NCBI RefSeq assembly: GCF_036226445.1
Contig: NZ_CP108474.1
Location: 372,001-436,000 of the forward strand
Length of the DNA: 64,000 nucleotides
Reading direction: 5' to 3'
Origin: Streptomyces sp. NBC_01255
Lineage (GTDB): Bacteria > Actinomycetota > Actinomycetes > Streptomycetales > Streptomycetaceae
The position numbers and the translations under genes were made by a program. The notes under the pieces are model-generated. The model was not told where the DNA came from. It searched no databases and saw only the letters and a list, made by a program, of their open reading frames with translations. Below are positions 854-49,402 of the stretch, in pieces; position 1 is the first letter of the stretch; each line of letters begins with the position of its first letter.

Positions 854-2649
854 TATTGCTCCCGTTCCTGCTCGATCGTGGTCCAGACCGGAGCAGCGAA
901 TTGGCGTGCATGACTCACGTCGATACAGTCCGGGTCGTCCCACAAGAGGGTCAGGTGGTTGTGCATGTCCGCGACGTCGTCCTCCTGCGCCGAACGCCGC
1001 CAGCGACGCAGCAGCTCGGGCAGCGATGGCAGCTGTTCGGCGGCGAGTTCGCCGAGCCGGGAGACCAACGGCCCGGGATCTCCTCCGTCGCGGCGCCAGA
1101 TAATAGCGGGAATCCCCTCACGCACGGCGTCCTTCACCCCGCGCACGACCCGTTCGTCGGTCGGCTCGTAGGCGAAGGCGAGACCCAGGCAGGCGACGTC
1201 CGCATGGGTGTCGAGCCAGCGCCGTACGTCACCGTCCTTGCCTCGTAGCCGCAGCACGGGTCCCCGGTCCTTCAAGCCCGCCAGCCGCTCCGGGGCACCG
1301 GCCCCGGGTTCGTCGATGGCCAGCCAGCCGCATCGGGCCAACACCTGCGCCTCGGCTGGCCCGTTGTGCAGCAGTTTCCAGCGGTCCTGCCACGGGCGAC
1401 GCCACGACGGCTCTCGCAGTCGGTCCAGGGACCGCACCACCACCGGGCACCGGAATCCGATCCGGTACCCGTCAGCGTCGATCCCCCACAGATCCGCCGG
1501 GTGGCCGAGGAGCGACCAGGGCAGCAGGAACTCGATCCGGAAGTCCTCGCCGTGATCGCCTGTGGCGACAAGGTCGTTCCAGGTGACGAGAACGTCGGCG
1601 CCGCTCGCGACCAGTTCCCTCCTCCCGAGACGTTCCTGACGCTCCCGCTTGGCGAGCAGCCGCAGCCCCGCCTCGTCGCGCTCGTAGAGGTGTGCCTCGA
1701 TGACGTACTGCTCGCCACCGGCAGGCGCCGATACCTCCTCCACCCTCAGTTGGAGGATCATTCGGCCGCCGGGTGCCGGCTGTCTGGTCCGGGCGGACAG
1801 CGCGAGCCTGTCCTCGTCCCTAAGACCGAGCAGTCCAGCCGCAGCGCCGATCTCCTCGCGTAACTCACCGCGCAGCCGGTTCGGGAGACGGGCGGCCAGT
1901 TCGGCGAGGAACAGCAGCACCAATGGCACGTTGTCGTCGTCGCCCCGCACCTGGTCGAGCCGATGCACGGCCTCCGGCAGAGACTCCCTCCCCCGCAGAG
2001 GCGCGCGCCGGCCGGCTCCGCAGGCCGCCTGCGCCGCCTGCTCCATCACGGCACGCGGCACGGACGGGGCGATCCGATCGCAAAGTTCCTCAAGTCTGGC
2101 CAACTGCCGCTCCGGCAGCCTGCCCCTGCGGGTCAGCCAGTCGATGCATCCCTTCAAGTCGACCAGGGCGGCTTCGTCACGGCGCAGGAATTCCAGGGTG
2201 GTCCACAGGGCATGCAGGGCCGTCTCGGGATCACGATGACGCTCGCAGAAACGGGACAGCTCCAGCACATGCTCGGACGCCGTGGCGGACTGGCGGATCT
2301 CGACAGGTCTCCTGTCGTGATGGAGCTGGGCTCCCATCTCCTTCAGGACGGTATGTCGGAATTCGGCGTCGATAGCGTCCGGAAAGCCGAGCAACGCCTC
2401 GGCGAGCCGCACCGCTCCACCCCGCGGCCATGCGCTGCCGTACGAGGGGGTGGTCGCCGCTGCCCGTACGCCTGGCGTCCGTGACACAGGCGTCGAGGGA
2501 GGCTGGAGTCGTTCACCATCGTTGCCCTGCGTGTCCGGCGCGTCCGGTGTGTCCCGCGCGTCCTGAGTGTCCGGCGCCGGGTCGGCGGCTCCGCTCGTGG
2601 CCGGGTTCGTCAGGAGATGCCGCAACCGTTCCCGCCAGGATCCCCTCAT
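853..2649 (-). CDS. VMAP-like protein (vWA-MoxR-associated) with N-terminal effector-associated domain
   Basis: 598 residues. A low-complexity Asp/Pro/Thr linker (about 20-60) precedes a helical module at about 79-168 ([10 protein letters not shown], then [20 protein letters not shown]). This aligns by eye with the C-terminal module of the protease encoded just upstream, so both carry the same effector-associated domain. The remainder contains repeated WxxPW-type and acidic motifs and ends with [10 protein letters not shown], typical of VMAP-C. The start ATG overlaps the protease stop (ATGA), and its own stop overlaps the MoxR start (TAATG). In the family model VMAP couples the MoxR ATPase to an effector. 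The homotypic module suggests recruitment of the trypsin-like protease (inference). Confidence 0.82.
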
Positions 2650-3578
2650 GCCAGTCCGCCGAGCACCGTGCGCAGCTCATGAACCGCAGCCTCGCCGGGA
2701 CGCAGTGATTCGACCGCATGTCCCAGCGCCCGGTAGGCCAGTCGTGGGTTCCGGTAACTGCGGCACCGTTGGACGATCTCCAGCAAGTGATCACGGGGGT
2801 GGGGGCGGTACGCCGCTTGAAAGGCCGTCGTGAGGCCGAGTTCCTCACCCATGAGTCTCAGGATCTGGCGGCGGAAGTCGGGGTCCTCCGCATCGGGAAG
2901 GCCCTGCAGTACCGCGACGATCCGCATCGTGTAGGGCAGCGCGTCGGGTACGAGGACTGTCCGGGGTTCTGGCAGAAGGTCTGCCAGCCAGGCGCGTAAC
3001 GCGGACACGGGGGTGATCCATCCCCCACGGGGGCTGTCGTAGTCGCGACTCCCCTTGAGCACCCCGCAGACTTCCCCCGTACCGGCGCGCATCACCATGC
3101 TGCCGCTCATTCCGTCCTTCACCTCGTCGCCACGAACTCGGACGTACGGACCGACCGGCCCGGTCACTTCCAGGAGCAGCGAGTCGGGGTGGACGCCCTC
3201 GTCCGGTGCGTAGGTGGAGAATCCGAGAACGTGCACCTGCTCCGCCGGTTCGGGATCGGCCGCTGCCAGTTCGGCGTACGGACGTCCGTCGTGGTGCTCC
3301 AGCGTGAGCAGAGCAAGGTCGGGGAAGGGGTAGGAGGTGCCGGTTCCGCCGTGCTTCGGGGACGCCTTGATATCGCTTTCCCGTACCAGCAGCCGTTCGC
3401 CCCGGTGGAGAACTGTCACGCACTCCTGAGATCTCCAGGATGCGACCACCACGTGCGCCGCCGTGACCACATGCCGGGGCGTCACCAGGAATCCGCTTCC
3501 CAGGAAGCCCGTCGCATCACTCAGCCAGACGGCGGCATCCCGCATGCCGCCCGCTCGGGGCACATCTGCGATATTCAT
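2646..3578 (-). CDS. trypsin-like serine protease with C-terminal effector-associated domain
   Basis: 310 residues with no signal peptide, so probably cytoplasmic. The S1 protease triad is visible as His42 (VTAAHVV), Asp87 (PFPDLALL) and Ser158 (DGMSGSMV). Residues about 217-305 (MRIVAVLQGLPDAEDPDFRR, then PRDHLLEIVQRCRSYRNP) form a helical module matching the N-terminal module of the next gene. This is the pattern of an effector-associated domain that tethers a protease to a VMAP hub. It overlaps the VMAP start by 4 bp and lies 9 bp downstream of the trypco1 gene, so the four genes probably form one operon. Substrate unknown; probable role is regulated proteolysis in a conflict or cell-death response. 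Confidence 0.87.
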   Translation of the reverse strand: MNIADVPRAGGMRDAAVWLSDATGFLGSGFLVTPRHVVTAAHVVVASWRSQECVTVLHRGERLLVRESDIKASPKHGGTGTSYPFPDLALLTLEHHDGRPYAELAAADPEPAEQVHVLGFSTYAPDEGVHPDSLLLEVTGPVGPYVRVRGDEVKDGMSGSMVMRAGTGEVCGVLKGSRDYDSPRGGWITPVSALRAWLADLLPEPRTVLVPDALPYTMRIVAVLQGLPDAEDPDFRRQILRLMGEELGLTTAFQAAYRPHPRDHLLEIVQRCRSYRNPRLAYRALGHAVESLRPGEAAVHELRTVLGGLA

Positions 3579-3587
3579 GACGAGTCG

Positions 3588-3998
3588 TCAGGCTGGGTCG
3601 CCTGGAGAAGGTGTGCCAGGTGCCTCTGTCGCCGCCTGGGAGCGCTCGCGCCTAGACGCTGTGTCCCAGCTCATCCGCACGGTGAGAGAGGCCTCACTCG
3701 CCGCCTCCGCGATCACGCCCACCAAGTGTCCTGACTTGACGGCCAGCTTGAGGCCGAACTCCAATTCGAAGGTGTCGGGTTGTCCGGGGCCACCACCGGC
3801 GATGGTGTCGGCCGCCCAAGTCCCCATACCGCTGATCAACGTACGGACATCGTCCAGCTTGAGCGCTACCGCCTCGGTCGCCCGGCCGCTCGCCCTGCGC
3901 AGTCCCGCGTCCCCACCGCTGCCTGGCTTGGTCAGCTCGATGACCTCGGCCCGGATCTCCGTGCCGTCCCCGATGTCGATCGTGACCAGAGCACTCAT
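3588..3998 (-). CDS. trypco1 (trypsin-co-occurring domain 1) protein, CU044_2847-like
   Basis: 136 residues. The ATG at 3996-3998 is preceded by a GGGGGAAGG ribosome-binding site, which decides this start over longer upstream frames. The body (SALVTIDIGDGTEIRAEVIE, then FELEFGLKLAVKSGHLVGVIAEA) is the beta-rich trypco1 fold found next to trypsin-like proteases and VMAP genes in actinobacteria. It is the first gene of the operon, 9 bp ahead of the protease. Its role is unproven; a regulator or substrate-adaptor of the protease is the usual suggestion. The last 30 residues are polar, Ser/Thr/Pro-rich and probably disordered. Confidence 0.85.
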   Translation of the reverse strand: MSALVTIDIGDGTEIRAEVIELTKPGSGGDAGLRRASGRATEAVALKLDDVRTLISGMGTWAADTIAGGGPGQPDTFELEFGLKLAVKSGHLVGVIAEAASEASLTVRMSWDTASRRERSQAATEAPGTPSPGDPA

Positions 3999-34291: not shown

Positions 34292-36742
34292 GTGGCGGTC
34301 GGGTACGCCGACCATGTCACCTACAACGTCCTGCCGCCGGGATCGCGCGATGCCGCCCGCAGGGGCGACGCGCAGCTGAACTCCTACCTCTACACCGCTT
34401 CACGGATCGCCGACCACCACCCCTATCCGGGCCTGGTCGAAGGCCCAGGGCCGCTGCCGCTGGCCGAGATCTACGTTCGTCAACTGGCCCAGGGGCAGCG
34501 CGACGCTGAGGACCAGGACGATACCGACACACGCGGAGCGGACGTGGCCAGCGTCCCGGTGCCTGCAGAAACCATCTTCACGGGGGGCGGTCGCGTTCGC
34601 GTGGTCCTGGCCGGCGCCGGGGGCGGAAAGTCGGCCCTGCTGCGCCACCACCTGGCCACCGGAGCCGGTCACTGGCTGGTTCACGGGAAGGGTGATCGGG
34701 TTCATGCGTCGATGCCGGTCCTGGTACGCGCCACGACCCTGGCCGACAGCCCCCTGCTGACCCAGGGTCTCGCACAGGCCGTCGTGGACGAACTCGGCCC
34801 GTACGGGCTGCGTGAGACGCTGACCTCGGAGTTCTTCAGCCGACCCCCGCACCCACAAGTGCCCTGGCTGGTGATGGTCGACGGCCTTGATGAGGTTCCG
34901 GACCGCACCACCCGCGTCACTCTGATGAATCGGCTGGCTCGCGAGGCGGACGACGAGTCGTCGCCGTACCGGTTCATCGTGGCAACCCGCCCTCTGCCGG
35001 GCGGGGAACTCGACCGGCTGGGGCCTGGTGCCGAACACTTCGAACTGCAGCCCTTCAGTCCGGCGGACGTGTGGGCGTACGCCCGAGGATATTTCCGCGA
35101 CCTACCGGACAGCGAACGTCAGGTCAGGATCTTCACGGCGGGACTCAAAGAGTCGGGGCTGGACGGTCTGGCTCGCACGCCCCTGATCGCCTTCATCCTC
35201 TGCCAGCTGTACACCGCCGACCCCACCCGGCCCCTGCCCGAAGGCCGTACCGGTGCCTACCAGTCGTTCGTCGAGCTGCTCTACGAACAGAACACCCACA
35301 AGAGCATCCGCCACACCCACGACGAGGTGATCCGGGCCCTCAAGGACCGCCACCAGATCCCCAGGGACCAACAGGCCGCCGAGCAGGCCGCGCAACTGGT
35401 TCGAGAGGGCCTACCCGAGCTGATCGATCACGTGGCTTACGAGAGGATCAACGGGAACACTGCCCCGGCCGTCGAGATTCTCTCTCTCCGACTGGACGTC
35501 CAACGCCCGGCGAAGGTGAAGCCGCCGCTCTGGAACGCATTCCTGGGTGATCTCCTGCGGCCCACCGGCCTACTGGCCGAGCACTCGGGCGACTTCCACT
35601 TCCTGCACCAGACCCTCCTCGAGTATCACGCGGCCCGCCACGCGACGCGCGACGAACAGGCCCGCGCCGCACTGCTTCACGAGTTGTTCCTCCGTAATCG
35701 TGCCTATGCCGATCACGATCTGCAGCCACGTCGTCCCATACAGCCGTCCCACCTCAGCTTTCTCCTCGACGGGCTCCTCGCCCCGGCAGATCACATCGCG
35801 ACCCAGACGATCCGGGTCCTCGACGACCTCTCAACGTCGGGCCACCCCACCGCCTGCAAGCTCCTGGTCAAGCTGGTAGAGCTGCGCACCAAACTCCCCC
35901 CGGACTCCACCGCACGCCAACTCGCAGCTCATGCCCGCCACCAGAGCCTGTCCACCAACCGTGTACTGGCCGCCCGCACTTTGGCCACGGTGTCCGGGCA
36001 CCAGGACGAAGGCGCCACGCTTCTGGCCGGTTTCGTCGGCGATACCAGCCTCCCATTCCGCGATCGAGTAAGCGCGGCCACACTTCTGGCCACAGTGGAC
36101 GGCCACCGGTCACAAGCCGCTCAGCTCCTCCTCGATCTGGCAGGCGACCGAACCCTCAGCTTTGAATTTCGTGTCGCCGCTGGCTACGGCTTGGCCAGCT
36201 TGAAGGAGCGCCGCGACGAGATCGTCCAACTCTTTGCCCCTTGGGCCGACAGCGTCACCCTTCACATCAAGGACCGAACAACCGCCGCCTCGCTCCTAGC
36301 GGCGGCCGGCGATGAGCGCGCCAATCAGCTGCTCTTCCGCGTGGCCAACGACAGTAGCTTGGATATCCGTATACGCGTGCACGCCGCCCGCGGCCTGGCT
36401 CAGATCGGTGACGAACGCATCGCGACCGTACTCATCGCCCTCGCTGAGGTTAACGACCCCGAGGGCGATATTCATGGCCATGTGCGCGCGGCCGAAGTTC
36501 TGTCGTTTCTGCCCCGGTACCGGGGCACGGCAGCCGGAGCGCTCACGCGAATCGCCACTGACAGCGCGCACTGGGACGGACTCGCCCGCGTAGAGGCTGC
36601 CGAGTACCTGGCCTGGCTGGACGGATACCGGGCGCACGGCACCGATCTGCTCACCCGCCTCGCCGAGGGAGGTCGTAGCCGCGACCATGCGACGAGAGCG
36701 CTGGCCAAACTCCGTACCGGTCGACGCCCCACGTGGCGGTGA
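34292..36742 (+). CDS. NACHT-domain NTPase with HEAT-like repeats, candidate defence protein
   Basis: 816 residues from GTG 34292. Walker A GAGGGKSA (108-115), Walker B PWLVMVDGLDEVPD (191-204) with the extra acidic residues typical of NACHT ATPases, then the FIVATRP sensor and a winged-helix region containing FHFLHQTLLEYHAARH. From about residue 520 to the end are HEAT-like helical repeats (RVSAATLLATVDGHRSQAAQ type). The coding frame extends about 60 bp upstream (INADIAITAYGGG) without an obvious start, so the real start or a frameshift joining it to the previous gene is uncertain. Domain order matches bacterial NACHT antiviral sensors; no separate effector domain is visible. Confidence 0.88.
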   Translation: MAVGYADHVTYNVLPPGSRDAARRGDAQLNSYLYTASRIADHHPYPGLVEGPGPLPLAEIYVRQLAQGQRDAEDQDDTDTRGADVASVPVPAETIFTGGGRVRVVLAGAGGGKSALLRHHLATGAGHWLVHGKGDRVHASMPVLVRATTLADSPLLTQGLAQAVVDELGPYGLRETLTSEFFSRPPHPQVPWLVMVDGLDEVPDRTTRVTLMNRLAREADDESSPYRFIVATRPLPGGELDRLGPGAEHFELQPFSPADVWAYARGYFRDLPDSERQVRIFTAGLKESGLDGLARTPLIAFILCQLYTADPTRPLPEGRTGAYQSFVELLYEQNTHKSIRHTHDEVIRALKDRHQIPRDQQAAEQAAQLVREGLPELIDHVAYERINGNTAPAVEILSLRLDVQRPAKVKPPLWNAFLGDLLRPTGLLAEHSGDFHFLHQTLLEYHAARHATRDEQARAALLHELFLRNRAYADHDLQPRRPIQPSHLSFLLDGLLAPADHIATQTIRVLDDLSTSGHPTACKLLVKLVELRTKLPPDSTARQLAAHARHQSLSTNRVLAARTLATVSGHQDEGATLLAGFVGDTSLPFRDRVSAATLLATVDGHRSQAAQLLLDLAGDRTLSFEFRVAAGYGLASLKERRDEIVQLFAPWADSVTLHIKDRTTAASLLAAAGDERANQLLFRVANDSSLDIRIRVHAARGLAQIGDERIATVLIALAEVNDPEGDIHGHVRAAEVLSFLPRYRGTAAGALTRIATDSAHWDGLARVEAAEYLAWLDGYRAHGTDLLTRLAEGGRSRDHATRALAKLRTGRRPTWR

Positions 36743-38944: not shown

Positions 38945-39601
38945 ATCACGTCCGAAGCCATAGCCGGATCGCGGCGACAGTGACGGTGCCGTGGAAGACG
39001 TAGGCCCGCTTGTCGAAGCCTCGTCCCCGCTGACACGGTCCGGGCGAGTCCGGGGGCGCCCGCCGTTCGGGCGGGGTACCCGGGTTCGTTCGAGGACGTC
39101 AGTCATCTGCGGGGCGTCGCCCCACTCCCCCGGTGTCACCAGGAGTGCGAGAGGGCGGCGGTCGCCTTCCCCTGCAAGATGAACCTTTCAGGTAACACCG
39201 CCCCGTGACCGTCCGAGCCCCTCGTCGGTGCGATGGTGTCGGGGCGTCGTCCTTTTTCGGGATCCGAGGTGTGGCTTTCGGGGCACCGGCTGCGTGCTGG
39301 TGGGCCCGGCACGAGGTCGAGTCCACGCCGACCATGCTGCAGTCGATCCGTCCGCCGAGATCGGCGTGAGCCTGGGCGGCGCGCAGGCTCCTGTCCCAGG
39401 TTCCGTCCGCCGACCAGCGGCGATGCCCTTCCTGGACGGTCTTCCAGGCACCACATACCGGTCCGGTAGGTCACGCCAGGGAACCCCAGTGCGGACCCGG
39501 AACATGATCCCGTTGATGACGGTGCGGTGGTCCCTCCACCGGCCCCCACGTCCGGCCGACGGTGGCAGATGAGGCTCCGGCAACGACCACTCACAGTTCA
39601 T
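38945..39601 (-). pseudogene. IS5-family transposase, frameshifted
   Basis: From ATG 39601 the minus strand reads GRWRDHRTVINGIMFRVRTG, VPWRDLPDRY, then in other frames VDSTSCRAHQHAAGA and VPRPNGGRPRTRPDRVSGDE, ending near 38945. The order is that of IS5 transposases, with at least three frame changes. It belongs to the same subgroup as the remnant at 54010-54535. Confidence 0.75.
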
Positions 39602-39830
39602 CAGATCCCCCGACCCAGGCCTGAACCGACGAACACCCGACCGGAAGGTCTCATGATCCGCCGGACGCGGCCCAGCGGTACCAGACCCGCGGTGCCCAGT
39701 CCTCCGGCCTCCGACGTCATCCGGCCACGCACCGTCCGGAACCCCGTTCGAACCGACAGCCCCATCAATCGGTATGCGGATGGCTTCTAACGCCACATAT
39801 CCGCACCGACGCGCCCACTCGGGTCCATGC

Positions 39831-40031
39831 TCAAGAGGCCTTCGTGAAGGCCCGAGAGGGGACGGCCGGTGGAGCATCCGTTCTCGCCAGACTCCATGAC
39901 CGCCCTGTGGATGCGCCGCGAGACCCGACGGAACGAGCGGCGTCCCGGACGCCGTCCAGTAACTTGGCGTAGTGGCGGAAGAGGACCTCGATGCTCTGCC
40001 CCGCGCGACGAGCGCATTCCGCCCGGTCCAC
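39831..40031 (-). pseudogene. integrase C-terminal fragment, same family as 9560-10645
   Basis: The frame reads MDRAECARRAGQSIEVLFRH, YAKLLDGVRDAAR, almost identical to the tail of the integrase remnant at 9583-9780. All catalytic residues upstream are missing. Its 5' side joins directly to a tfoX-like fragment, so this is a deletion junction. Confidence 0.75.
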
Positions 40032-40047
40032 ATGGCCTGGCCCTCAC

Positions 40048-40216
40048 CGGCGGGTGCCTCCTCGGCCGGGTCCGCGCCCACCCGGGCGGATGAGCTCGTC
40101 GCCGACCACGCCACGGTCATGTTGCCGCCCAGCAGGAAGGACAGCCTGCCGAGCATCCGCTTTTCGGTGCGGCCCGGTCGCTCGCCGATCTGCCCCCTGA
40201 TCCGCTGGGCGTCCAC
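40048..40216 (-). pseudogene. TfoX N-terminal-domain fragment
   Basis: The minus frame from 40216 gives AQRIRGQIGERPGRTEKRML, GRLSFLLGGNMTVAW, matching the conserved first half of TfoX/Sxy N-terminal-domain proteins (ERPGLTEKRMFGGLAFLxxGNM). It loses homology after about 40 residues and runs into the integrase fragment. Non-functional. Confidence 0.65.
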
Positions 40217-40400
40217 GAGCCTGACGCAGCAAAAAGGACGCTCCTGGCACTCGATGACACCGTCCGTGACCTTCCCGTTTCTGCGAGTCAGTGACGAATC
40301 ATGCGGTCGCGCCCTCGCGAGCCGACAGGCGGGGCCCTGTCACACGCGGAGCCCACTTGTCACGTCGCTGAGCGAGCCCCTCGCGGATACTCTGGGATTC

Positions 40401-41492
40401 ATGATCGAGCCCGGACGGCCGCGGCTCCGTCGGAGCAACGGCTACGGCAGGCTCGTGCGGCTGTCGCCGGTGATTCTGACCGTCGTGATCGCCAGCCTGG
40501 CCTACGCCACTCCGCCGGAGATGGCCTTCAGCCGCCTCCTGCCCGCGGCGCCGGCTCTCGCCGCCGCCATGTGGCCGGTCCTCCCGACTGTCCTCCTCGG
40601 GACCGTCTGCCTCCTTCTGATGATCGGCCTCAGCTTCGTCTTCCCCGATCTCGGGACGTGGTGGACGTGCGGCGGAATCGTCGCGGTCACCGTGGCCGCC
40701 GCATACGGAAGCCACGTCCGGCTGCAACGGGAGCGCACGCTCTTTCAGGTACGGCTCGTCGCCGACGCGGCCCAGCAGGTGGTACTGCGGCCCCTGCCGC
40801 ACCGTTTCCGGAACGTCGAGATCGAATCGCTGTACCTCGCGGCCGCCGCGGAAGCCCGCATCGGCGGGGACTTCTACGAGGTGGTCGATACGCCGTACGG
40901 GGTACGGCTGCTCATCGGCGACGTGCGGGGCAAAGGCCTGCCGGCAGTGGGGGCGGCCGCGGCGATCGTCAACGCCTTCCGGGAGGCGGCACATGGCGAG
41001 GCCTCCATGGCCGACGTCGCCCGCAAGCTCGACGCGAGCTGTGCCCGGCACAACGCCGCCCATCCACCCGAGGCACCGATGGAACGCTTCGCCACCGCGC
41101 TGCTCGTAGAGATCCCGCATCAAGGCAGCCACATCACCATCGTCAACTGCGGACATCCCCCGCCCTTGATCCACAGCCTCAAGGAGGTACGCATCCTCGA
41201 GCCCTCCGTCCCATCGCCTTTGCTCAGCCTCGCGGAATTGCTCGGCGACCATTACCGTGCGGACGCCTTCGACTTCGCTCCCGGCGAACTTCTCCTCCTC
41301 TATACGGACGGGATCGCCGAAACCCGCGCCCGGGACGGTGAGTTCTTCCCGTTGACAGCGTGGATGCGCCGACAGCCCCCCACGCCTCCCCGTGATCTGC
41401 TCACGGCGCTGCACCACGACCTCCTCCGTCACAGCAGAGGCAGCCTCGACGATGACATCGCCGCCTTGGCCGTACGCCTGCGCACGCCGTGA
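40401..41492 (+). CDS. membrane PP2C-type serine/threonine phosphatase (SpoIIE domain)
   Basis: 363 residues from ATG 40401; the frame continues 143 codons upstream over decayed DNA and was not used. Residues 25-120 hold four hydrophobic segments in two hairpins (LSPVILTVVIASLAY, LPTVLLGTVCLLLMIGLSFV, GGIVAVTVAAAYGS). The SpoIIE/PP2C phosphatase follows with metal ligands in ARIGGDFYEVVDT, LLIGDVRGKG, VNCGHPPPL, LLYTDGIAETR and the final SLDDDIAALAVR. This family commonly dephosphorylates anti-sigma-factor antagonists. No partner is in the window. Confidence 0.92.
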   Translation: MIEPGRPRLRRSNGYGRLVRLSPVILTVVIASLAYATPPEMAFSRLLPAAPALAAAMWPVLPTVLLGTVCLLLMIGLSFVFPDLGTWWTCGGIVAVTVAAAYGSHVRLQRERTLFQVRLVADAAQQVVLRPLPHRFRNVEIESLYLAAAAEARIGGDFYEVVDTPYGVRLLIGDVRGKGLPAVGAAAAIVNAFREAAHGEASMADVARKLDASCARHNAAHPPEAPMERFATALLVEIPHQGSHITIVNCGHPPPLIHSLKEVRILEPSVPSPLLSLAELLGDHYRADAFDFAPGELLLLYTDGIAETRARDGEFFPLTAWMRRQPPTPPRDLLTALHHDLLRHSRGSLDDDIAALAVRLRTP

Positions 41493-41537: not shown

Positions 41538-42914
41538 TCACCGGCTGAACCTTCGCCGCCTTCCGAGGCAACGGCCTGGACTGCCTCGAACTCCTCCACC
41601 CACGGCTGGCAGCGCGTGGCCGTCAAGGCACGGGCAAGGCGTCTCGTCGTTGCCGGCATAACGGGCATGCGGTGAGGTGTGCTGCGAGTCGGAGACCTCA
41701 CAGATGAGAGAACGGTCCCGGATCAAGCGCAGACCGATCGGGCCGGAGGCGTGACGGATCGCGTTGGTGACCAGTTCACCGACCACCGGTTCCGTGGTGA
41801 ATGCCAGATCGTCCAGTCCCCACCGCACAAGCTGTTCCGCGGCCATCGAACGTGCGCGTGCGACGAGCGCGGGGTCCGAGGGCAGCTCCCAGGCCGCCAC
41901 CTGGCGTGCGTCCAGCGCACGGGTGCGCACGACAAGGAGCGCCGCGTCGTCCAGGCTTCCTGCGGCGAGCGCCACTTCCGTGCCTTCGCACGGAAGCCGT
42001 CCCACGCCCAGAGGAGGCCCCGGTGGCAGACGAAGGAAGCTGACGGGGCGGTGCGGCTGCACCGCAGCCGACGGCAGGTGTTGCGCCACCGCCCGGGTGC
42101 TCGTTCGAGAAGCTGGATCGTAGACCCCGTAGACTCCGTAGACACACGTCGCTCCGACGACGCCACTGCCGTCCGGGCCTTGCACGTTTTGGTCCGACGC
42201 GTCCTTGCCGACTTGATCGTTCAGCCGGGTCAGGAGTTCGTCAGGCGCGAGGTCCAGCTCGGCCAGGGTGCGCACCATCGCGCGCACGCGTCCCATCGTG
42301 GCAGCGGCTCCCAGCCCGTGGCCGACAACGTCCCCCACGACGAGTCCGACACGTGCGCCGGACAGCGGAATGGCGTCGAACCAGTCGCCGCCGGCGCCGA
42401 GGTGGCTGTCGGCGGGCAGGTAGCGACTCACCGCCTCGACCGCGCTCAGCTCGGGCAGCGATCGTGACAGCAGACTGCGCTGGAGCATGAACGCGGCGGT
42501 GCGCTCTCGTCGGTACCGCCGGGCGTTGTCGATGCACACAGCGGTCCGCGACACCAGCTCCTCTGCCACCGCCCGATCGTCGTCGCCGAAGGGTCCCGAG
42601 TCCTCGCCCCGCACGAAGGTGACAAGGCCCCATGGCGTCCCCAGCACGATCAGCGGGACGTACAGTCATGTCGGCGCGACCACGGCGTCCGCGGTCGCAC
42701 GGCTCCCTGCCAGGCTTTCGGCCTGCGACGATCCGGTGGCGTACGCGACCCGCTCCCACCCGGGAGGGTTCTCCGTCGGAATCGGCCACGCGCACCAGGT
42801 CCCCAGCCGTGACGGGCTTCGGTTCCTCTCCCCCAGTACCGGTGGAACCACTCCGGCGCTGCCACCGTCACCAGCCAGTCCCCCCTTGCATGCCCATCCC
42901 GCCGGGCGCCTCAA
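41538..42914 (-). pseudogene. RsbU-like SpoIIE phosphatase/HATPase protein, decayed
   Basis: From 42914 the minus frame gives a GAF-like region (WERVAYATGSSQAESLAGSR) that is cut by an in-frame TGA at 42666-42668 (VVAPT-stop-LYVPLIVLGTPWG). The frame then continues through RTAVCIDNARRYRRERTAAF, the SpoIIE core (GGDWFDAIPLSGARVGLVVG, DVVGHGLGAAATMGRVRAMV) and an HATPase part (PVVGELVTNAIRHASGPIGL). Between EVALAAGSL and AALLVVRTRALDA about 45 residues that carry the YTDGL phosphatase motif are missing. The C-terminus diverges after CEVSDS. Three independent lesions make it a pseudogene. Confidence 0.8.
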
Positions 42915-42950: not shown

Positions 42951-45900
42951 TCAGGTGCGGTCCGGTGCCCTCCCCGTCGCCAGCTGTCGGACTTCGTCCG
43001 GCGTGAGGTCGGTGCGCGAGCGCAGAGCCGTCCGGACGAGTTCGGCCTTCTCCGTTGCGCCGTGGTCAGCGAGCCAAGTGAGAGCCAGGGAGACAGCCCG
43101 CCGGGCGTCCGGTGCTGTGAGGTCGGGCCGTTCGAGCAGCGGGGCGATCACGTACCGGGCACGTGCGGCGGGAGCGTGGTCGTCGAGCCAGGCGAAGGAG
43201 ACCGTGATCGTCCTCACGAGGTCCGCGGCCGTGAGATCGGTGCGGGAGAGGAGTGCCCGCAGAAGCAGGGGCGCCCCGGGGATGGCGGCGAAGTGGTCCA
43301 ACCAGGCGAGCGACAGGGAGAGGGCTCGCCGAGCCTGGTCGGCGGTGACATCGGTGCGCGTGAGGAGCGGGGCGAGGACGAACCGGGACCGTGCGGACGA
43401 CACGTAGTGGTGGAGCCAGACGAAGCCGGCGGAGACGGCACGCTCTGCGTCTGCCGCCGTAAGGTCGGTGCTCCTGAGAATCGGGGCGAGGACGTGCCCG
43501 CCGCCGCCGGCGGCAGGGTGGCCGTCGAGCCAGATCAGGGCGTGGGTGACGGCCTGCCGCACGTCGTCCGCCGTGAGTTCGGTGCGGGTGAGAAGAGGTC
43601 CGAGTACGCGCCCGGCGGAGGGAGTGGGAGCGTGATGGCCGAGCCAGGTGAGGGCGTGGATGACGGCCTGCCGCACGTCGCCGGCCGTGAGTTCGGTGTG
43701 GGCGAGCAGCGGGTCGAGTACGTAACTGGCGGTGGGCGTAGGGGCGTGTTGGTCGAGCCAGGTCAGTGCGTGCGTGACGACCTGCCGGGCGTCACGCGAC
43801 GTGAGGTTTGTGCGGGCGAGCAGCGGTTCGAGGACGAAACGGGCCTCCGCGATCACCACATGGCGATCGAGCCAGGTGAGGGCAAGGGGCACGGATGGTT
43901 GGGCCGCTTCAGGCGCCAGGTCGGCTCGGGCGAGCAGCAGTCTCAGCACGTATCTGGCGTCTGCGATCGTGGCGTGGTCGTCGAGCCAGGTAAGGGCATG
44001 GGTGACGGCCTGCCGCACTTCGTCGGCCGTGAGGTCGGTGCGGGCGAGCAGTGGGTCGACGACGTATCTGGCGTCTGCGATCGTGGCGTGGTGGTCGAGC
44101 CAAGTGAGGGCGTGGGTGACGGCCTGCCGCACTTCGTCGGCCGTGAGGTCGGTGCGGGCGAGCAGCGGTCCGAGGACATGCCGGGCGCCGCCGCTTTCGC
44201 CGTGCTCGTCGAGCCAGGCGAGGGCCGTCCCGTTCGAGCGGCGCGCGTCCGCGGGACCAAGGCCGCCGGCGCTCAGCAGTGGCTTGATGACGAAGCGGGC
44301 CTCCGCCGAGGCCACGTGGTGGTCGAACCAGGTGAAAGCGGCTGTCAGGCCCCGCTGCAGGTGTTCGGCACTGAGATCACTGCGGGAGAGCAGAGAATCC
44401 AGCACGAACCCCGCGTTCGGAGTGGTGGAGTGGTGGTCGAGCCAGGCCAGTGCCACCGTCGCCGCCCACCGGACGTTGTCGGCACCCATGTCGGTGCGGT
44501 TCAGCAGCGGGGCGAGCACGTACCCGGCGTTGGGGTTCGCGGTCTGGTCACCGAGCCAGACGAGCTGAGTGGAGAGGGACCGGCGGGCCTCCCCGGCACT
44601 CATGGCGTCGCGCGCCTTCAGGGCGTCGCGAACCATACGCGAGTCCGCCGTCCCGGCGTGGTCACCGAGCCAGGCCAGTGCGGTGGGCAGCAACCGCTCG
44701 GCATCACCGCGCGGGAGGTCGGAACGTGCGAGGAGCCGGGCGAGGACGTATCTGGCGTCGGGCAGGGCCGCGTGGTGGTCGAGCCAGGTGAAGGCGTCGG
44801 CGAGCGCTTGCCGAACCTGATCGGGAAGCAGGTCCGTCCGGGACAGCAGACCGTTGAGTACGAAACTGGCGCCCGATGTGGTCACGTACGAGCGGAGCCA
44901 GGCGAGCGTGGTGCGGATCGCATGCTCCCTGCCGGCTTCCGAGAGATCCGTACGGAGGAGCAGGGGTTTGAGAACGTGTCCGGAGTCGTCGGTGGTGTGG
45001 TGATCGAGCCACACGATCGCGGAATGGAGAACCCGTCGGGCATCGTCGGGCGTGAGATCGGAGCGTTGGAGCAACGGGCCGACGATGTGACAAGCCTGGG
45101 CGTCGGTGCTGTGGTGGTCGAGCCAGAGCAGGGCGGTCGACGTCGATCGGTGCGTGTCCGCATCGGAGAGATCGTCCAGTGCGAGCACCTGCTTGAGGAC
45201 GAAGGACGCCTTCTCCACCGCGCCGTGGCGGTCGAGCCATTCCCTGGCCCAGCGCCGCACCCGCAGGGAGTCCTCGGCTGAAAGGCCGGTCCGCGCGAGC
45301 AGCCGACCGAGGATGTACTCGGCCTCGACCGCGGTGTGGTGGTGGTCCAGCCAGTCCAGACTGGCGCCGAGCGTCTGCTCCGCGTCGTCGGCGGACAGAT
45401 CGGATCGTCCCAGCAGCCGGGAGAGGACCGACTCGGCGTTGATGTCGTCAGCGTGGTGGCCGAGCCATTCCATGGCGCTGCGCCGCGCCCGCACGCTGTC
45501 GTCGGCCGACAGGTCGGGGCGGGGGACGAGAGTGCGCAGGACATGTCTGGCCTGCGCCGTTGTGGCGTAGGTGGTGAGCCAGTCGAGGCTGATCCGGACG
45601 ACGTGCGCGTCGTCCTCCGGCGGCAGGTCCCGGCGGGCGAGCAGTGGGCTCAGGGCGAATTGGGCTCTGTCGGTGGTCGCGTACCGGTCCAGCCAGGTGA
45701 GAGCGGCCCGCAGAGCAGCGTGGAGGGACGAGGGATCCAGGTCCGTGCGCGCAAGAAGCGGCCGGAGGATGTAACTGGATTCGGGAGCGGTGGTGTTGTG
45801 CTCCAGCCAGTCGAGGGCGATGGGAAGGCCGCGCCGGACGTCGTCGGGGTCGAGGTCGGCGCGCCCGAGAAAGACACCGAGGACAAAACCGGTACTGGGG

Positions 45901-48320
45901 TTGGCCGGGTGTCGGTTCAGCCAGGCCCGCGCAGCGGAGAGAACCCGCCGTGTCTCGAAGGGACTCAGGTCTGCGCGGGCGAGCAGCGGCCGGAGAATGT
46001 ATGCGGCGTTGGGGGCGGTGGTGTGGCGGTTGAGCCAGGCGAGCGCGGATGCGACGGCCTGCCGTACGGCGGAGGCGTGCACGTCCGTACGGGAGAGCAG
46101 CGGACCCGTGACGTAACTGGCCGGGCCCGTCACTCCGTAGGTGTCCAGCCAGGCCAGTGCGGCGGGGACGAGGGACTGGGCTCCGTCACCTGAAAGATGG
46201 CGCAGGCCGCGGTGGAGGACGTGCCTGGCGTCGGAACCCGCACCGAAGTCCGTGAGCCAAGGGCTGACGACCTGATCCCAGGACTCGACGGCCGCGTCGG
46301 ACCACGGCGGTCCGGAGCAGATCGCGCCGAGTGCGTAACCCCCCACGTTGGAATCGTGGCGTGTCAGGCCGCCGATGGTGCCGGCATGTGTGGTGAACCA
46401 GTCGTGCAGTACCGGGGTGACCGCCGACGCCCGTTCGGTGAGGGCGAGGTCGTTGACCAGGCGGCCCAGGTTGACGGAGAAGCGACCGACAGTGCGTGCG
46501 CCGGTGAGACAGCCGGCGAGCAGCGCATGGGTTCCGGCGACGTCCGGGGAGTCGGTCCGCTCGGGTAGCACGACCGACTCCATGAGCTGGTCGGCGACGA
46601 TGTCGTGAGCGACGGAAAGAACACCGTCCCGGCTCTCCAGCCAGCCCAGCGACACGAGCGTCGCCACGACACCCTCGGCCGGCGGCACGTCACCCGTCGC
46701 CCCGGCCAGGGCGGCGTGGGCGCTGGCCACCACCTCGGCATAGTCCTGCGGGCATGCCGCCGCGGCGGCAGCGGCGGCCAGCAGCCCGTGCGGGGCACGT
46801 GCGGGGGTGTACGGCTGTTCGGGGGCGCGCCCGGGCACCGTGAAGCCGTCCTCACCCAGCCGCTTCAGGAGCCATCCGGGCAGTTCGCCGTCGGACCGCA
46901 GACCGACGTCCTCGGGCAGGGAGAGCCCCGCCGCGTACCGGCGTTCGATCTCTCTGGCCACGAGCAGGGCGACGATCGGGCGGTTGCCGCTGACCTTGAG
47001 CATGCGCTCCGCGCCCAGCTCACGGACGGCGGTGGGGGCCAGCGTCTCCAGAGCGTTGCGGGTGACCAGCTGCTGGAACTCCTCGTCCTGCCGCAGCCGT
47101 ACCTCGTCGAAGAGTTCGTACACCAGTGCGCGATCGGCCTTCAGTAGCCACCCGGGTCGCACCGTGGCGAGGAAGACCACGAGGGCGTTGTGGCGGCGCG
47201 CCTCGGGGAGGAGCTGATGCCGCAGGGCCTGCAGGTCGAGGTTGGTCTCGTTGAGGTCGATCACCACCAGCACGTAACCGGCCTCCACGAAGGCCCGCTC
47301 GGCGATCTCGTCGATGATCTGGTCGGCCGTCGACTCGCCACGGGTCCGGGGTACGACGTGCAGTACTCGCCAGCCCTCGTCGAGGGCGAGCTGTCCCACT
47401 TCGAGGGCGGTACGTGACTTTCCCGTGCCCGCCGCTCCGACCAGCAGGACGCCGCGGTCCGGCGATCTCACCAGCCTGGTGAGCAGCTTGGCCGGAGCGG
47501 TGACGTGGTCGCTGCCCGGCGACACGAAGGGTATGTGGTCCGAGGTGAGGTTCTTCTCGAAGTCGCCGAAGCCCTTGACGAGTTCCTGCTGGGTGACCAC
47601 CAGCCGCAGTCGGCTTCCCGGCTCGCGACCGGGCAGCTCCACGTCCACCGGGCGGTCCGGCAGATAGTTGTCGCCGAGCACGCGACGGAACTCCGGGTCG
47701 TCGAAGGCCTTGGCAACGGGCTCGGCCTCCGTGTTGCCGGTTCCGGCGGCGGGCAGCCGATGCGTCTGCACCCCGACGAGCTTGCCGCCGGGAGTGAACA
47801 GAGCCATGCCCGACGCACCCTTCCAGGAGTCCGTCCCGTCCGCCGCCCTCTCGTTGGGCGGCGCATTCGTCATGGTGAGATGCAGCAGCCCCGACTTCAT
47901 GTTGGAGCCGAGCTGGACGAATCCGTTGAACTGGTAACTGTCGCGTCGGCCCCACCCCTGGAACCTTTCCGAGGCGGCTCGCTGCGCGAATCGGGGGAAT
48001 CCGATCCCGACGACCGGCACGCTGCCCACGGTGTCCGGCAGGCGGCCCAGGGAGATGCCCGACGCCGGGCCGAGACGCGCCGGCACGGCGTCGAGCCGCA
48101 ACAGCGCCAGATCCTGCCCGTTCACCGCCCGCCACACGCGCGTGGCGGGCACCTCCTCCTCGTCGAGGCCGATCATCACGGTGCAGGCGCCCGGGGCGGC
48201 GAGTAGATGGAGGGCGGTCAGGATCAACCGGTTGCTGATCCGGTAGCCCGACCCGTACTCGACGGCTTCCCCCTGCCGGACGACGACCTCGGCAACCCGG
48301 TTCTTGTCCACGGGAGTCAT
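42951..48320 (-). CDS. giant trypsin-like protease / P-loop ATPase with 28 tandem 38-residue repeats
   Basis: 1789 residues, no signal peptide. Residues 1-215 are a trypsin-like protease: His38 (LTALHLL), Asp70 (GQDLALLRL), Ser170 (WKGASGMALF). Residues 285-560 are an AAA/STAND-type ATPase with Walker A GAAGTGKS (295-302) and Walker B YVLVVIDLNE (349-358). Residues about 721-1783 are 28 consecutive repeats of 38 residues with consensus ALTWLDHHAT-x8-PLLARTDLT and ADEVRQAVTH, predicted helical. It is encoded 8 bp after the trypco2 gene and surely forms a two-gene operon with it. Protease, switch and sensor on one chain suggests self-contained regulated proteolysis in a conflict response. Confidence 0.9.
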   Translation of the reverse strand: MTPVDKNRVAEVVVRQGEAVEYGSGYRISNRLILTALHLLAAPGACTVMIGLDEEEVPATRVWRAVNGQDLALLRLDAVPARLGPASGISLGRLPDTVGSVPVVGIGFPRFAQRAASERFQGWGRRDSYQFNGFVQLGSNMKSGLLHLTMTNAPPNERAADGTDSWKGASGMALFTPGGKLVGVQTHRLPAAGTGNTEAEPVAKAFDDPEFRRVLGDNYLPDRPVDVELPGREPGSRLRLVVTQQELVKGFGDFEKNLTSDHIPFVSPGSDHVTAPAKLLTRLVRSPDRGVLLVGAAGTGKSRTALEVGQLALDEGWRVLHVVPRTRGESTADQIIDEIAERAFVEAGYVLVVIDLNETNLDLQALRHQLLPEARRHNALVVFLATVRPGWLLKADRALVYELFDEVRLRQDEEFQQLVTRNALETLAPTAVRELGAERMLKVSGNRPIVALLVAREIERRYAAGLSLPEDVGLRSDGELPGWLLKRLGEDGFTVPGRAPEQPYTPARAPHGLLAAAAAAAACPQDYAEVVASAHAALAGATGDVPPAEGVVATLVSLGWLESRDGVLSVAHDIVADQLMESVVLPERTDSPDVAGTHALLAGCLTGARTVGRFSVNLGRLVNDLALTERASAVTPVLHDWFTTHAGTIGGLTRHDSNVGGYALGAICSGPPWSDAAVESWDQVVSPWLTDFGAGSDARHVLHRGLRHLSGDGAQSLVPAALAWLDTYGVTGPASYVTGPLLSRTDVHASAVRQAVASALAWLNRHTTAPNAAYILRPLLARADLSPFETRRVLSAARAWLNRHPANPSTGFVLGVFLGRADLDPDDVRRGLPIALDWLEHNTTAPESSYILRPLLARTDLDPSSLHAALRAALTWLDRYATTDRAQFALSPLLARRDLPPEDDAHVVRISLDWLTTYATTAQARHVLRTLVPRPDLSADDSVRARRSAMEWLGHHADDINAESVLSRLLGRSDLSADDAEQTLGASLDWLDHHHTAVEAEYILGRLLARTGLSAEDSLRVRRWAREWLDRHGAVEKASFVLKQVLALDDLSDADTHRSTSTALLWLDHHSTDAQACHIVGPLLQRSDLTPDDARRVLHSAIVWLDHHTTDDSGHVLKPLLLRTDLSEAGREHAIRTTLAWLRSYVTTSGASFVLNGLLSRTDLLPDQVRQALADAFTWLDHHAALPDARYVLARLLARSDLPRGDAERLLPTALAWLGDHAGTADSRMVRDALKARDAMSAGEARRSLSTQLVWLGDQTANPNAGYVLAPLLNRTDMGADNVRWAATVALAWLDHHSTTPNAGFVLDSLLSRSDLSAEHLQRGLTAAFTWFDHHVASAEARFVIKPLLSAGGLGPADARRSNGTALAWLDEHGESGGARHVLGPLLARTDLTADEVRQAVTHALTWLDHHATIADARYVVDPLLARTDLTADEVRQAVTHALTWLDDHATIADARYVLRLLLARADLAPEAAQPSVPLALTWLDRHVVIAEARFVLEPLLARTNLTSRDARQVVTHALTWLDQHAPTPTASYVLDPLLAHTELTAGDVRQAVIHALTWLGHHAPTPSAGRVLGPLLTRTELTADDVRQAVTHALIWLDGHPAAGGGGHVLAPILRSTDLTAADAERAVSAGFVWLHHYVSSARSRFVLAPLLTRTDVTADQARRALSLSLAWLDHFAAIPGAPLLLRALLSRTDLTAADLVRTITVSFAWLDDHAPAARARYVIAPLLERPDLTAPDARRAVSLALTWLADHGATEKAELVRTALRSRTDLTPDEVRQLATGRAPDRT
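42972..46160 (-). repeat. 28 tandem 114-bp coding repeats
   Basis: Each unit is 114 bp (38 codons; unit 11 is one codon shorter). Most units are diverged, but units 18-20 (about 43960-44260) are nearly identical in DNA, including a repeated stretch encoding RTDLTADEVRQAVTHALTWL, which shows recent duplication. The fixed positions are Trp-Leu near the start, Leu-Leu-x-Arg in the middle and Asp-Leu-[ST] before the second helix. Confidence 0.92.
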
Positions 48321-48328
48321 TCAGCGGC

Positions 48329-48634
48329 TCAGCGGGCCGGGAAGAGGTCCGAGACGTCGTCGCCGGTGAGGACCGGCTCGCCGGTGGAGGTCTCGGCGCC
48401 CAGACTGAGCCGGACCGTGTGGGTGTGCGCCGACTTGGCGGCGCCCTTGGCACCGAGCGAGACCACCCAGAACTTCATTCCGGCGGTGGCCTCCGCACTC
48501 TTCTCGACGGCGACCTGAAGTTCCAGGTCGATGGAGTCGATCCGGAAGCGCACGTCCTGGCCGGCCGCATCGAGTCGGGCACGGCTGATCTCCGAGCGGA
48601 GCGACTTGAGCAGATCGGCGAGTTCGATGTCCAT
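48329..48634 (-). CDS. trypco2 (trypsin-co-occurring domain 2) protein
   Basis: 101 residues starting MDIELADLLKSLRSEISRAR, with a middle FRIDSIDLELQVAVEKSAEA and a C-terminal KFWVVSLGAKGAAKSAHTHT, then VRLSLGAETSTGEPV. This is the trypco2 pattern: an N-terminal helix and a beta-sheet domain found next to trypsin-like proteases. It is 8 bp upstream of the protease-ATPase gene. It probably binds the protease or its activating signal (inference). An apparently unrelated trypco1 protein occupies the same position in the VMAP operon at 3588. Confidence 0.87.
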   Translation of the reverse strand: MDIELADLLKSLRSEISRARLDAAGQDVRFRIDSIDLELQVAVEKSAEATAGMKFWVVSLGAKGAAKSAHTHTVRLSLGAETSTGEPVLTGDDVSDLFPAR

Positions 48635-48837: not shown

Positions 48838-49402
48838 GGGAGCCGGGCGCGCATGCCGATCTCTGCTTTCAGGACGGCGAAGAAGCTCTCCGCGGCAGCG
48901 TTGTCGAAGCACGAACCGGTGCGTCCGGTGCCCTGCCGGATGCCCGACTCGCCCAGCAGGTCACGGAATTGACGGGACGTGTATTGCGACCCGCGATCGG
49001 AGTGAAAGATCGCGTTTCCTGCCGTGTGCCCACCCTCATGCCCACCCTCAAATGGGCCATCCGGATGGCGTCTGCGACCAGTTCGGTCCGCAAGTGGTCG
49101 GCCATCGACCAGCCCACGACCTCCCGCGTGCACAGATCGATGACCGTCGCCGGATACAGCCGTCCCTCGGCCGTCGGCAGGCAGGTGATGTCCCCGACGA
49201 ACTTCAGACCCGGCAGCGGCGCGGTGAAGTCCCGCAGAATCAGATCCGGCGACGGCGGCGCCCGAGGTGAGCTCCGCCTCTTGGCCCACCAGATCGACTT
49301 GGGATCACACCCCCCTTCGATCCTCTGCTTCCGGCAGAAGGGAAGAGCCCTGGGCGTCTGCATTCCGGGAATGCCGGGCCCCCGCAGCTCGGGCTTCTGC
49401 AC
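48838..49402 (-). pseudogene. IS3-family orfB transposase, frameshifted
   Basis: The minus strand reads LRDFTAPLPGLKFVGDITCL, PTAEGRLYPATVIDLCTREV, VGWSMADHLRTELVADAIRM. After a small insertion and frame change it continues GHTAGNAIFHSDRGSQYTSR, TGSCFDNAAAESFFAVLKAE. The three catalytic acids (GDIT, HSDRG, NAAAESFF) are present but not in one frame. C-terminus degraded. Confidence 0.82.

Follow-up and report, generated by a model that had tools for sequence, protein, structure and literature searches.

A predicted immune-type receptor joining a trypsin-like protease, a STAND-type NTPase and a 38-residue repeat arm in Streptomyces

The window studied here, a 64,000-nucleotide stretch of contig NZ_CP108474.1 of Streptomyces sp. 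NBC_01255, carries on its reverse (−) strand a two-gene unit, in which a small gene for a Trypco2 protein (P0002, 101 amino acids, 48329..48634) comes first and is followed across an 8-bp gap (48321..48328) by a large gene (P0001, 42951..48320) whose 1789-residue product joins a trypsin-like protease, a STAND-type NTPase and an arm of many repeats in one chain; both genes are ATG-to-stop open reading frames (ORFs). We consider it likely that the pair encodes an immune-type, that is, NLR-like conflict receptor with the protease as its effector, and the conflict would probably be one with phages. This reading is carried by the domain order, the intact and conserved catalytic residues, the gene order and the patchy distribution, all of which were established at the level of sequence. 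Across homologous loci, the effector and its small helper gene were found to be exchanged together on a constant NTPase-solenoid chassis, and the arm to differ by whole repeat units.

RESULTS

A Trypco2 gene precedes a protease-NTPase-repeat protein

The small protein was identified as Trypco2 by its match to PF19631 (E 5.8e-26, 91 bits versus a cut-off of 24.2) together with the trypsin-like protein encoded 8 bp downstream, and no enzyme domain was detected in it by Pfam or NCBIfam scans. At E 0.001, no other protein of the genome matched PF19631, and the large gene is likewise the sole match of its kind in the whole genome. In the large protein, the trypsin-like peptidase domain occupies residues 1-205 (47706..48320, −) and matched Trypsin_2 (PF13365) over residues 23-184 with 35.7 bits versus a cut-off of 27.6 (E 1.8e-8), the catalytic residues following each other in the H-D-S order expected of this fold class, namely His38 (48207-48209), Asp70 (48111-48113) and Ser170 (47811-47813, in the context GASGM). 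All three were identical in 57 of 57 protease-bearing homologues, query included, and Lys301 and Asp355 of the NTPase were identical in 56 of 56. The latter set of 56, which contains the query, was selected by a motif filter for a protease N-terminus, while P0063 was added later by profile from the 23 left out, and its triad is intact as well. The triad was also found intact in the 33 protease loci described below and in locus L081. Variation of the triad across the family, which a sequence-only reading of this DNA had named as evidence against its proposal, was thus absent from all 57 proteins.

STAND NTPases are recognized by a Walker A motif, the aspartate of Walker B and, further downstream, a motif of GxP type. 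The STAND-type P-loop NTPase of the large protein was delimited to residues 271-480 (46881..47510, −) by sub-threshold Pfam matches (nSTAND_NTPase5 and AAA_16) and conserved alignment columns: the nSTAND_NTPase5 (PF25199) match reached 23.3 bits, below the cut-off of 34, over residues 282-388, and the same family is precomputed in 34 of the 78 listed homologues. The full motif set is present, with GAAGTGKS at residues 295-302 (47415-47438, −), Asp355 and Gly445/Pro448 all conserved as alignment columns, and Arg388 is a further conserved column. Behind the NTPase, a conserved region of residues 481-640 (46401..46880, −), with the conserved columns W483, W560, H572, D573 and R620, may be winged-helix-like by its position.

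The remainder of the chain is repetitive. Autocorrelation over residues 651-1789 peaked at 0.382 for lag 38 and 0.370 for lag 76, versus 0.056-0.121 for the other lags in the scanned range of 20-89, so the 38-residue repeat stands far above chance. Twenty-eight good units run over residues 714-1776 (42993..46181, −), preceded by a degenerate unit at residue 678; Trp11 of the unit is shared by all 29 units and Leu12 by 28 of them, and the unit at 1094 lacks one residue. At the DNA level, Tandem Repeats Finder reported no more than two arrays, which overlap and have a period of 114 (6.2 and 2.1 copies); most units have hence diverged too far for detection there. Each unit contains two amphipathic stretches, and the pattern suggests that the arm folds as an alpha-alpha solenoid. 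It could not be assigned to a known alpha-repeat family, as the HEAT_2 match reached 19.2 bits versus a cut-off of 27.7, and Pfam scans of the large protein and its relatives gave no named repeat family for the 38-residue unit. A search of the arm profile against solved chains yielded weak matches only, the best being 9hnh at E 0.0047. Other Pfam matches in the arm (T2SSK_1st, Pec_lyase, DUF3107, BACK, SBD_N, Glycos_trans_3N and others), a few of them above cut-off, were judged spurious because they cover one or two repeats and differ between relatives. Altogether, the intact triad, the P-loop ATPase, the 28 units of 38 residues and the Trypco2 gene 8 bp upstream that the sequence-only reading had described were confirmed by ORFs, Pfam and autocorrelation.

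Effector and helper gene switch together on a constant chassis

By scoring the 8000 candidates that share most words with the query, 78 homologues were found, mostly in named Streptomyces and otherwise in Micromonospora, Actinoplanes, Catenulispora, Actinosynnema, Yinghuangia, Sorangium and Phycisphaerae. Fifty-nine loci were fetched, 58 of which bear the NTPase core by profile (L090 does not), and together with the window locus (L001) these make 59 core-bearing loci, which are partly non-independent: L058 and L066 belong to the same strain and may each be half of a single gene, and from some genomes two loci were obtained. A protease N-terminus was detected by profile at 33 of the 59, and Trypco2 is the adjacent upstream gene at 32 of these 33 and at none of the 26 core-bearing loci without that profile match, so the gene order proposed for checking by the sequence-only reading proved conserved. 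Among the 32 Trypco2-protease pairs, the gap measures 7 or 8 bp in 11, the window included, and ranges in the remaining pairs from an overlap up to 48 bp, partly as an artefact of choosing the earliest start codon.

The other 26 loci carry different N-termini, labelled caspase-type at 10 loci (read by eye at all ten and Pfam-scanned at one), Cys-peptidase-like at five, DUF4062 at three and restriction-endonuclease-like at four, plus the single cases L055, L066, L081 and L084. A Pfam scan of nine of these N-termini and of the whole L055 protein found a caspase domain in L043 (5.4e-10) and a divergent trypsin in L081 (3e-11), both above cut-off, while DUF4062 in L071 (1.5e-4), Mrr, a restriction-endonuclease-like domain, in L076 and L083 (E 0.0026 and 0.021) and a transglutaminase-like match in L088 fell below it, and no effector was recognized by Pfam in L063 (AAA match only), L084 or L085. 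The helper changed with the effector. Upstream of the divergent trypsin of L081 lies Trypco1 (1.6e-19), and EACC1 (PF19953) was found by Pfam at all three caspase loci scanned; a profile seeded with a single EACC1 sequence detected it at every one of the 10 caspase-type loci and at 0 of 34 protease loci. A second set, consisting of 16 of the 29 new loci from a survey of 150 genomes and probably overlapping the first, behaved alike: Trypco2 was present at 10 of 10 protease loci, three of three EACC1 loci lacked both the protease and Trypco2, L102 had the core and neither helper, and L104 and L105 had no core.

On a tree of the NTPase core (57 rows), the effector label needs at least nine changes, and the 10 caspase rows form a single branch (SH-aLRT 96) nested in a clade (100) to which 17 trypsin rows also belong; the tree was built by a quick method and has several long branches, with 16 of 54 inner branches open. 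Across the loci compared, effector and helper gene thus switch together on a constant NTPase-solenoid chassis.

The helper was also followed beyond the family. Among the 63 Trypco2 matches listed, the present genome included, 30 loci were read, and a crude search found a trypsin-like N-terminus directly downstream in 20 of them and no protease match in the other 10; the NTPase-solenoid chassis was seen in five of those 20, within the approximately 440-630 visible residues. Judged by its gene neighbours, Trypco2 accompanies the protease rather than the NTPase or the arm. A place for Trypco2 within the sensor was rejected on these grounds, since the gene keeps to the protease, is absent from caspase loci and occurs beside trypsin-like proteins in which no such chassis was detected. 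A third operon gene was dropped as well, since the widest clusters of neighbouring genes span 7 of 34 protease loci; one of these clusters resembles antisense frames over the Trypco2 region, and another is without fixed position.

At L059 (6691-7948), the one protease locus without a Trypco2 neighbour by profile, a small ORF with no Pfam match and a seemingly membrane-bound ORF with pentapeptide-like repeats lie upstream, possibly including a diverged helper. Genome G139 holds, at its loci L095 and L107, both an EACC1-linked and a trypsin/Trypco2 version of the chassis.

The arm changes faster than the NTPase and by whole units

The closest relative, L091 (73% identity in the best stretch), differs from the window protein by exactly one 38-residue insertion, in unit 19. 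The extra unit of L091 falls among units ~18-24 (43454..44225, −), a 114-bp tandem repeat where neighbouring units are most alike in DNA (0.82 for units 19-20, 0.78 for 22-23 and 0.75 for 23-24, versus an all-pair median of 0.56). A 38-residue gap also separates a second pair, L039/L049, and counted repeats in the family range from 0 (on cut-off contigs) to 35 (L055), with seven in the 1268-residue L049, so that the repeat number is indeed variable among homologues, which had been proposed for checking. Between the window protein and L091, identity is 85% in the protease and 89% in the NTPase, versus 60-67% in the thirds of the arm. In all 11 locus pairs, formed so that no locus was used twice, the ratio of non-synonymous to synonymous change (dN/dS) was higher in the arm than in the NTPase, although arm dN could be raised by repeat misalignment; for the window pair the values were 0.56 versus 0.26. 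It also exceeded that of the effector part in nine of the 11 pairs. By these comparisons, the arm changes faster than the NTPase, and whole units are gained or lost.

Four homologues with short arrays of 8-13 units (P0018, P0033, P0053 and P0064) carry a NusA-like KH domain by precomputed Pfam annotation, and in P0018 KH_5 was confirmed behind the repeats.

The pair is patchily distributed and lies near other predicted conflict genes

Among the 150 same-genus genomes, at least 16 gave a match, a lower bound with three candidates scored per genome, and the NTPase core is present by profile in 14 of the 16, the loci of G115 and G143 being without it. Such a patchy presence does not suit a housekeeping role, which the sequence-only reading had named as an outcome that would overturn it; a role in phage defence stays a probable interpretation.

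Arm repeats and protease also turned up apart. Five Streptomyces plasmid records match the query, covering at most 61% of it and within the repeats. At two plasmid loci (L120 3400-8019 and L121 2503-7557), the repeats lie in a large gene directly behind an ATPase annotated as AAA/MoxR; the plasmid repeat genes are annotated as SAV_2336-related or WD40-related, and once the repeats lie behind WD40 repeats. At one plasmid locus, the next gene up from the ATPase encodes VMAP-M2 (1.1e-46), which makes it a predicted conflict system. Conversely, P0080 carries the same protease type on a NACHT protein with none of these repeats by profile. Thus, the protease cassette and the arm can each occur on another chassis.

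In the window, the pair is flanked upstream by an integrase-core (rve, PF00665, E 1.2e-9) ORF read as a transposase remnant (48869..49402, −) and on its other flank by an IS4/5-family transposase-like ORF (DUF4096, 39188-40216, −); two SpoIIE-phosphatase-domain genes (39972-41492 and 41538-42647) adjoin it. About 39 kb away lie a Trypco1 gene (3588-3998, −; PF19493, 3.7e-16), a trypsin-like ORF read by eye (2646-3578, −) and a VMAP gene (853-2649, −; PF20028, 1.8e-35), and behind these an AAA_5 ATPase with a MoxR-like reading and a 1676-amino-acid Tubulin_2-domain protein, extending past the window start (before contig position 372001). This Trypco1-trypsin-VMAP-ATPase cluster is predicted to be a second conflict system. 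Within 7 kb of the pair, an 816-amino-acid NACHT-like protein with HEAT-like repeats (34292-36742, +; NACHT 23.7 bits versus a cut-off of 26.7) is perhaps encoded by a further NLR-like gene.

DISCUSSION

Relation to described systems

All parts of the pair belong to known classes predicted in PMC7159879, and their layout as seen here was not found described. In the accessible text of that 2020 paper, Trypco1, Trypco2 and EACC1 are named for co-occurrence, Trypco1 and Trypco2 occurring, to the exclusion of each other, next to the trypsin-like peptidases of VMAP (vWA-MoxR) ternary systems. Those systems resemble the pair in that a small Trypco gene adjoins one for a trypsin-like domain fused to a larger predicted-conflict protein, and their Trypco/trypsin modules are enriched in multicellular bacteria (PMC7159879). 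The pair differs from them in having no VMAP domain by Pfam and no conserved MoxR/vWA neighbour, and in having its protease fused with a STAND-type NTPase and an arm of 28 units, and was therefore not counted among them.

The same text describes EACC1-caspase pairs (System 4; PF19953) whose C-terminal fusions are numerous and extend to STAND NTPases plus repeats, and whose N-termini are caspases or, less often, cNMP-cyclases (section 33). Our caspase-type relatives, with EACC1 upstream, share the NTPase-solenoid, whereas the window locus has a trypsin and Trypco2, no EACC1 and no caspase match, which places it outside that system. A STAND protein with an N-terminal trypsin is also mentioned there, and in the NucA-peptidase operons (System 3) a trypsin is N-terminal on a STAND NTPase as in our protein; unlike it, the System 3 protein adds a bDLD2 death-like domain, adjoins NucA nuclease genes and, as far as that text goes, is found mostly in alphaproteobacteria. 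Pfam gave no bDLD2 match in P0001; no search aimed at NucA was made. In the accessible part of a 2021 paper (PMC8195603), trypsin is listed among the N-terminal domains of STAND-FGS and EAD10 systems.

With AVAST (Avs), bNACHT and CARD-NLR systems the pair shares a STAND-type NTPase, an effector and C-terminal repeats, and trypsin-like proteases occur in Avs1 and CARD-NLR; in the consulted portions of the sources, trypsin-like peptidases of CARD-NLR-like systems are combined with an ATPase-TPR protein (PMC13236601), and in AVAST plus Hachiman a trypsin domain activates an upstream-encoded nuclease (PMC12799240). Unlike those, the pair gave no PADLOC/Avs match and has protease, NTPase and repeats in one chain. 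The sequence-only reading had stated that it could name no described system of exactly this architecture: none was found, and precedents in kind exist in PMC7159879 and PMC8195603 as far as accessible. In the literature searched, supplements lying outside it, no description was found of Trypco2 with a trypsin-STAND-38-residue arm, which may be listed elsewhere, nor of its linked effector and helper exchange with EACC1. The search likewise found no functional study of Trypco1, Trypco2 or EACC1.

Proposed function and alternatives

We infer an arm that senses a ligand, chains that assemble, a protease that kills in defence and a Trypco2 that acts on that protease. At rest, the NTPase of the chain would be inactive; the long arm would then bind an invader-derived molecule, nucleotide exchange would let chains assemble, and the clustered N-terminal trypsin-like domains would become active and cleave host or phage proteins or themselves, so that growth would stop or the infected hypha die. 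Trypco2 may be a dedicated protease helper outside the sensor, be it activator, inhibitor/holdase or first substrate. The sequence-only proposal that a single chain unites sensor, switch and proteolytic effector thereby stands as the best reading, given the triad kept in 57 of 57 proteins and the patchy distribution, with the correction that Trypco2 goes with the protease.

A number of observations weigh against this interpretation. No PADLOC model matched either gene at E up to 1, and among four further window genes and three relatives the only PADLOC match was a caspase model, for L043. The protease locus L059 has no Trypco2 neighbour by profile, and the nuclease-like (four loci) and Cys-peptidase-like (five loci) labels rest on reading, with sub-threshold or absent Pfam matches. 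As to the arm, the narrowest margin of dN/dS over the NTPase was 0.36 versus 0.32 (L036/L056), the 65-codon linker of residues 206-270 reached a dN/dS of 1.0 in the window/L091 pair, and the effector part changes faster than the arm in two of the 11 pairs, L050/L053, where the effector value is inflated by an over-long ORF start, and L065/L074. Positive selection on one repeat face was considered for the window/L091 pair (dN 0.56 versus dS 0.42), and the excess did not recur in the ten remaining pairs (dN 0.18, dS 0.32); positive selection on a binding face is therefore not firmly indicated. Finally, none of 72,556 plasmid records has one place covering at least 80% of the query, and no match was found in 50,697 phage records, viral contigs lying outside this search; with plasmid matches partial and confined to repeats and no phage match, mobility is not shown.

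Other functions were weighed against that of an immune-type receptor. The protein could be a proteolytic switch for a cell-internal cue such as stress, development or antibiotic production, its protease processing a host regulator with no invader involved. STAND proteins have also been implicated in transcription regulation (PMC8195603, accessible part), and the adjoining SpoIIE-phosphatase-domain genes would suit such a role; the sparse matches among same-genus genomes, the exchange for caspase- and nuclease-like effectors, which fits killing better than tuned signalling, and neighbour clusters no wider than 7 of 34 protease loci nevertheless make it unlikely. A small yet appreciable chance is left to the protease being an initiator that cuts a dedicated proenzyme, with Trypco2 as its substrate or as signal carrier to an effector encoded elsewhere: Trypco2 tracks the protease, and in AVAST/Hachiman the gene directly upstream of the protease fusion, in the same order, encodes the substrate (PMC12799240, accessible part), but Trypco2 has 101 residues without a recognized enzyme domain, and no conserved third gene was found near the pair.

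That the pair is an anti-plasmid or addiction-type module serving mainly to maintain itself appears very improbable. The position of the pair, ~415-421 kb into the 8.43-Mb contig, the transposase-like ORFs on both flanks and the patchy distribution would fit it, whereas the outcome of the plasmid and phage searches speaks against it, as does the size of the chain, known addiction toxins being, to our knowledge, far smaller than 1789 residues.

Implications

The immune-type receptor reading offers a natural receptor set in which the same switch and arm are combined with a different protease and helper, so that the role of the helper could be tested via cassette exchange, and a natural series of 38-residue arrays of differing length, in which it could be followed how a bacterial receptor changes its target. 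More tentatively, the 38-residue repeat may be a portable and as yet undescribed recognition module in the immunity of actinobacteria, one that changes its length by whole units and also serves in the large partners of MoxR/VMAP-type systems, while the killer on the STAND chassis and its cognate helper are swapped as a cassette. If so, the family would be a bacterial counterpart of the NLR receptor repertoires, and the Trypco and EACC1 proteins would be interchangeable licensing factors, each for its own protease.

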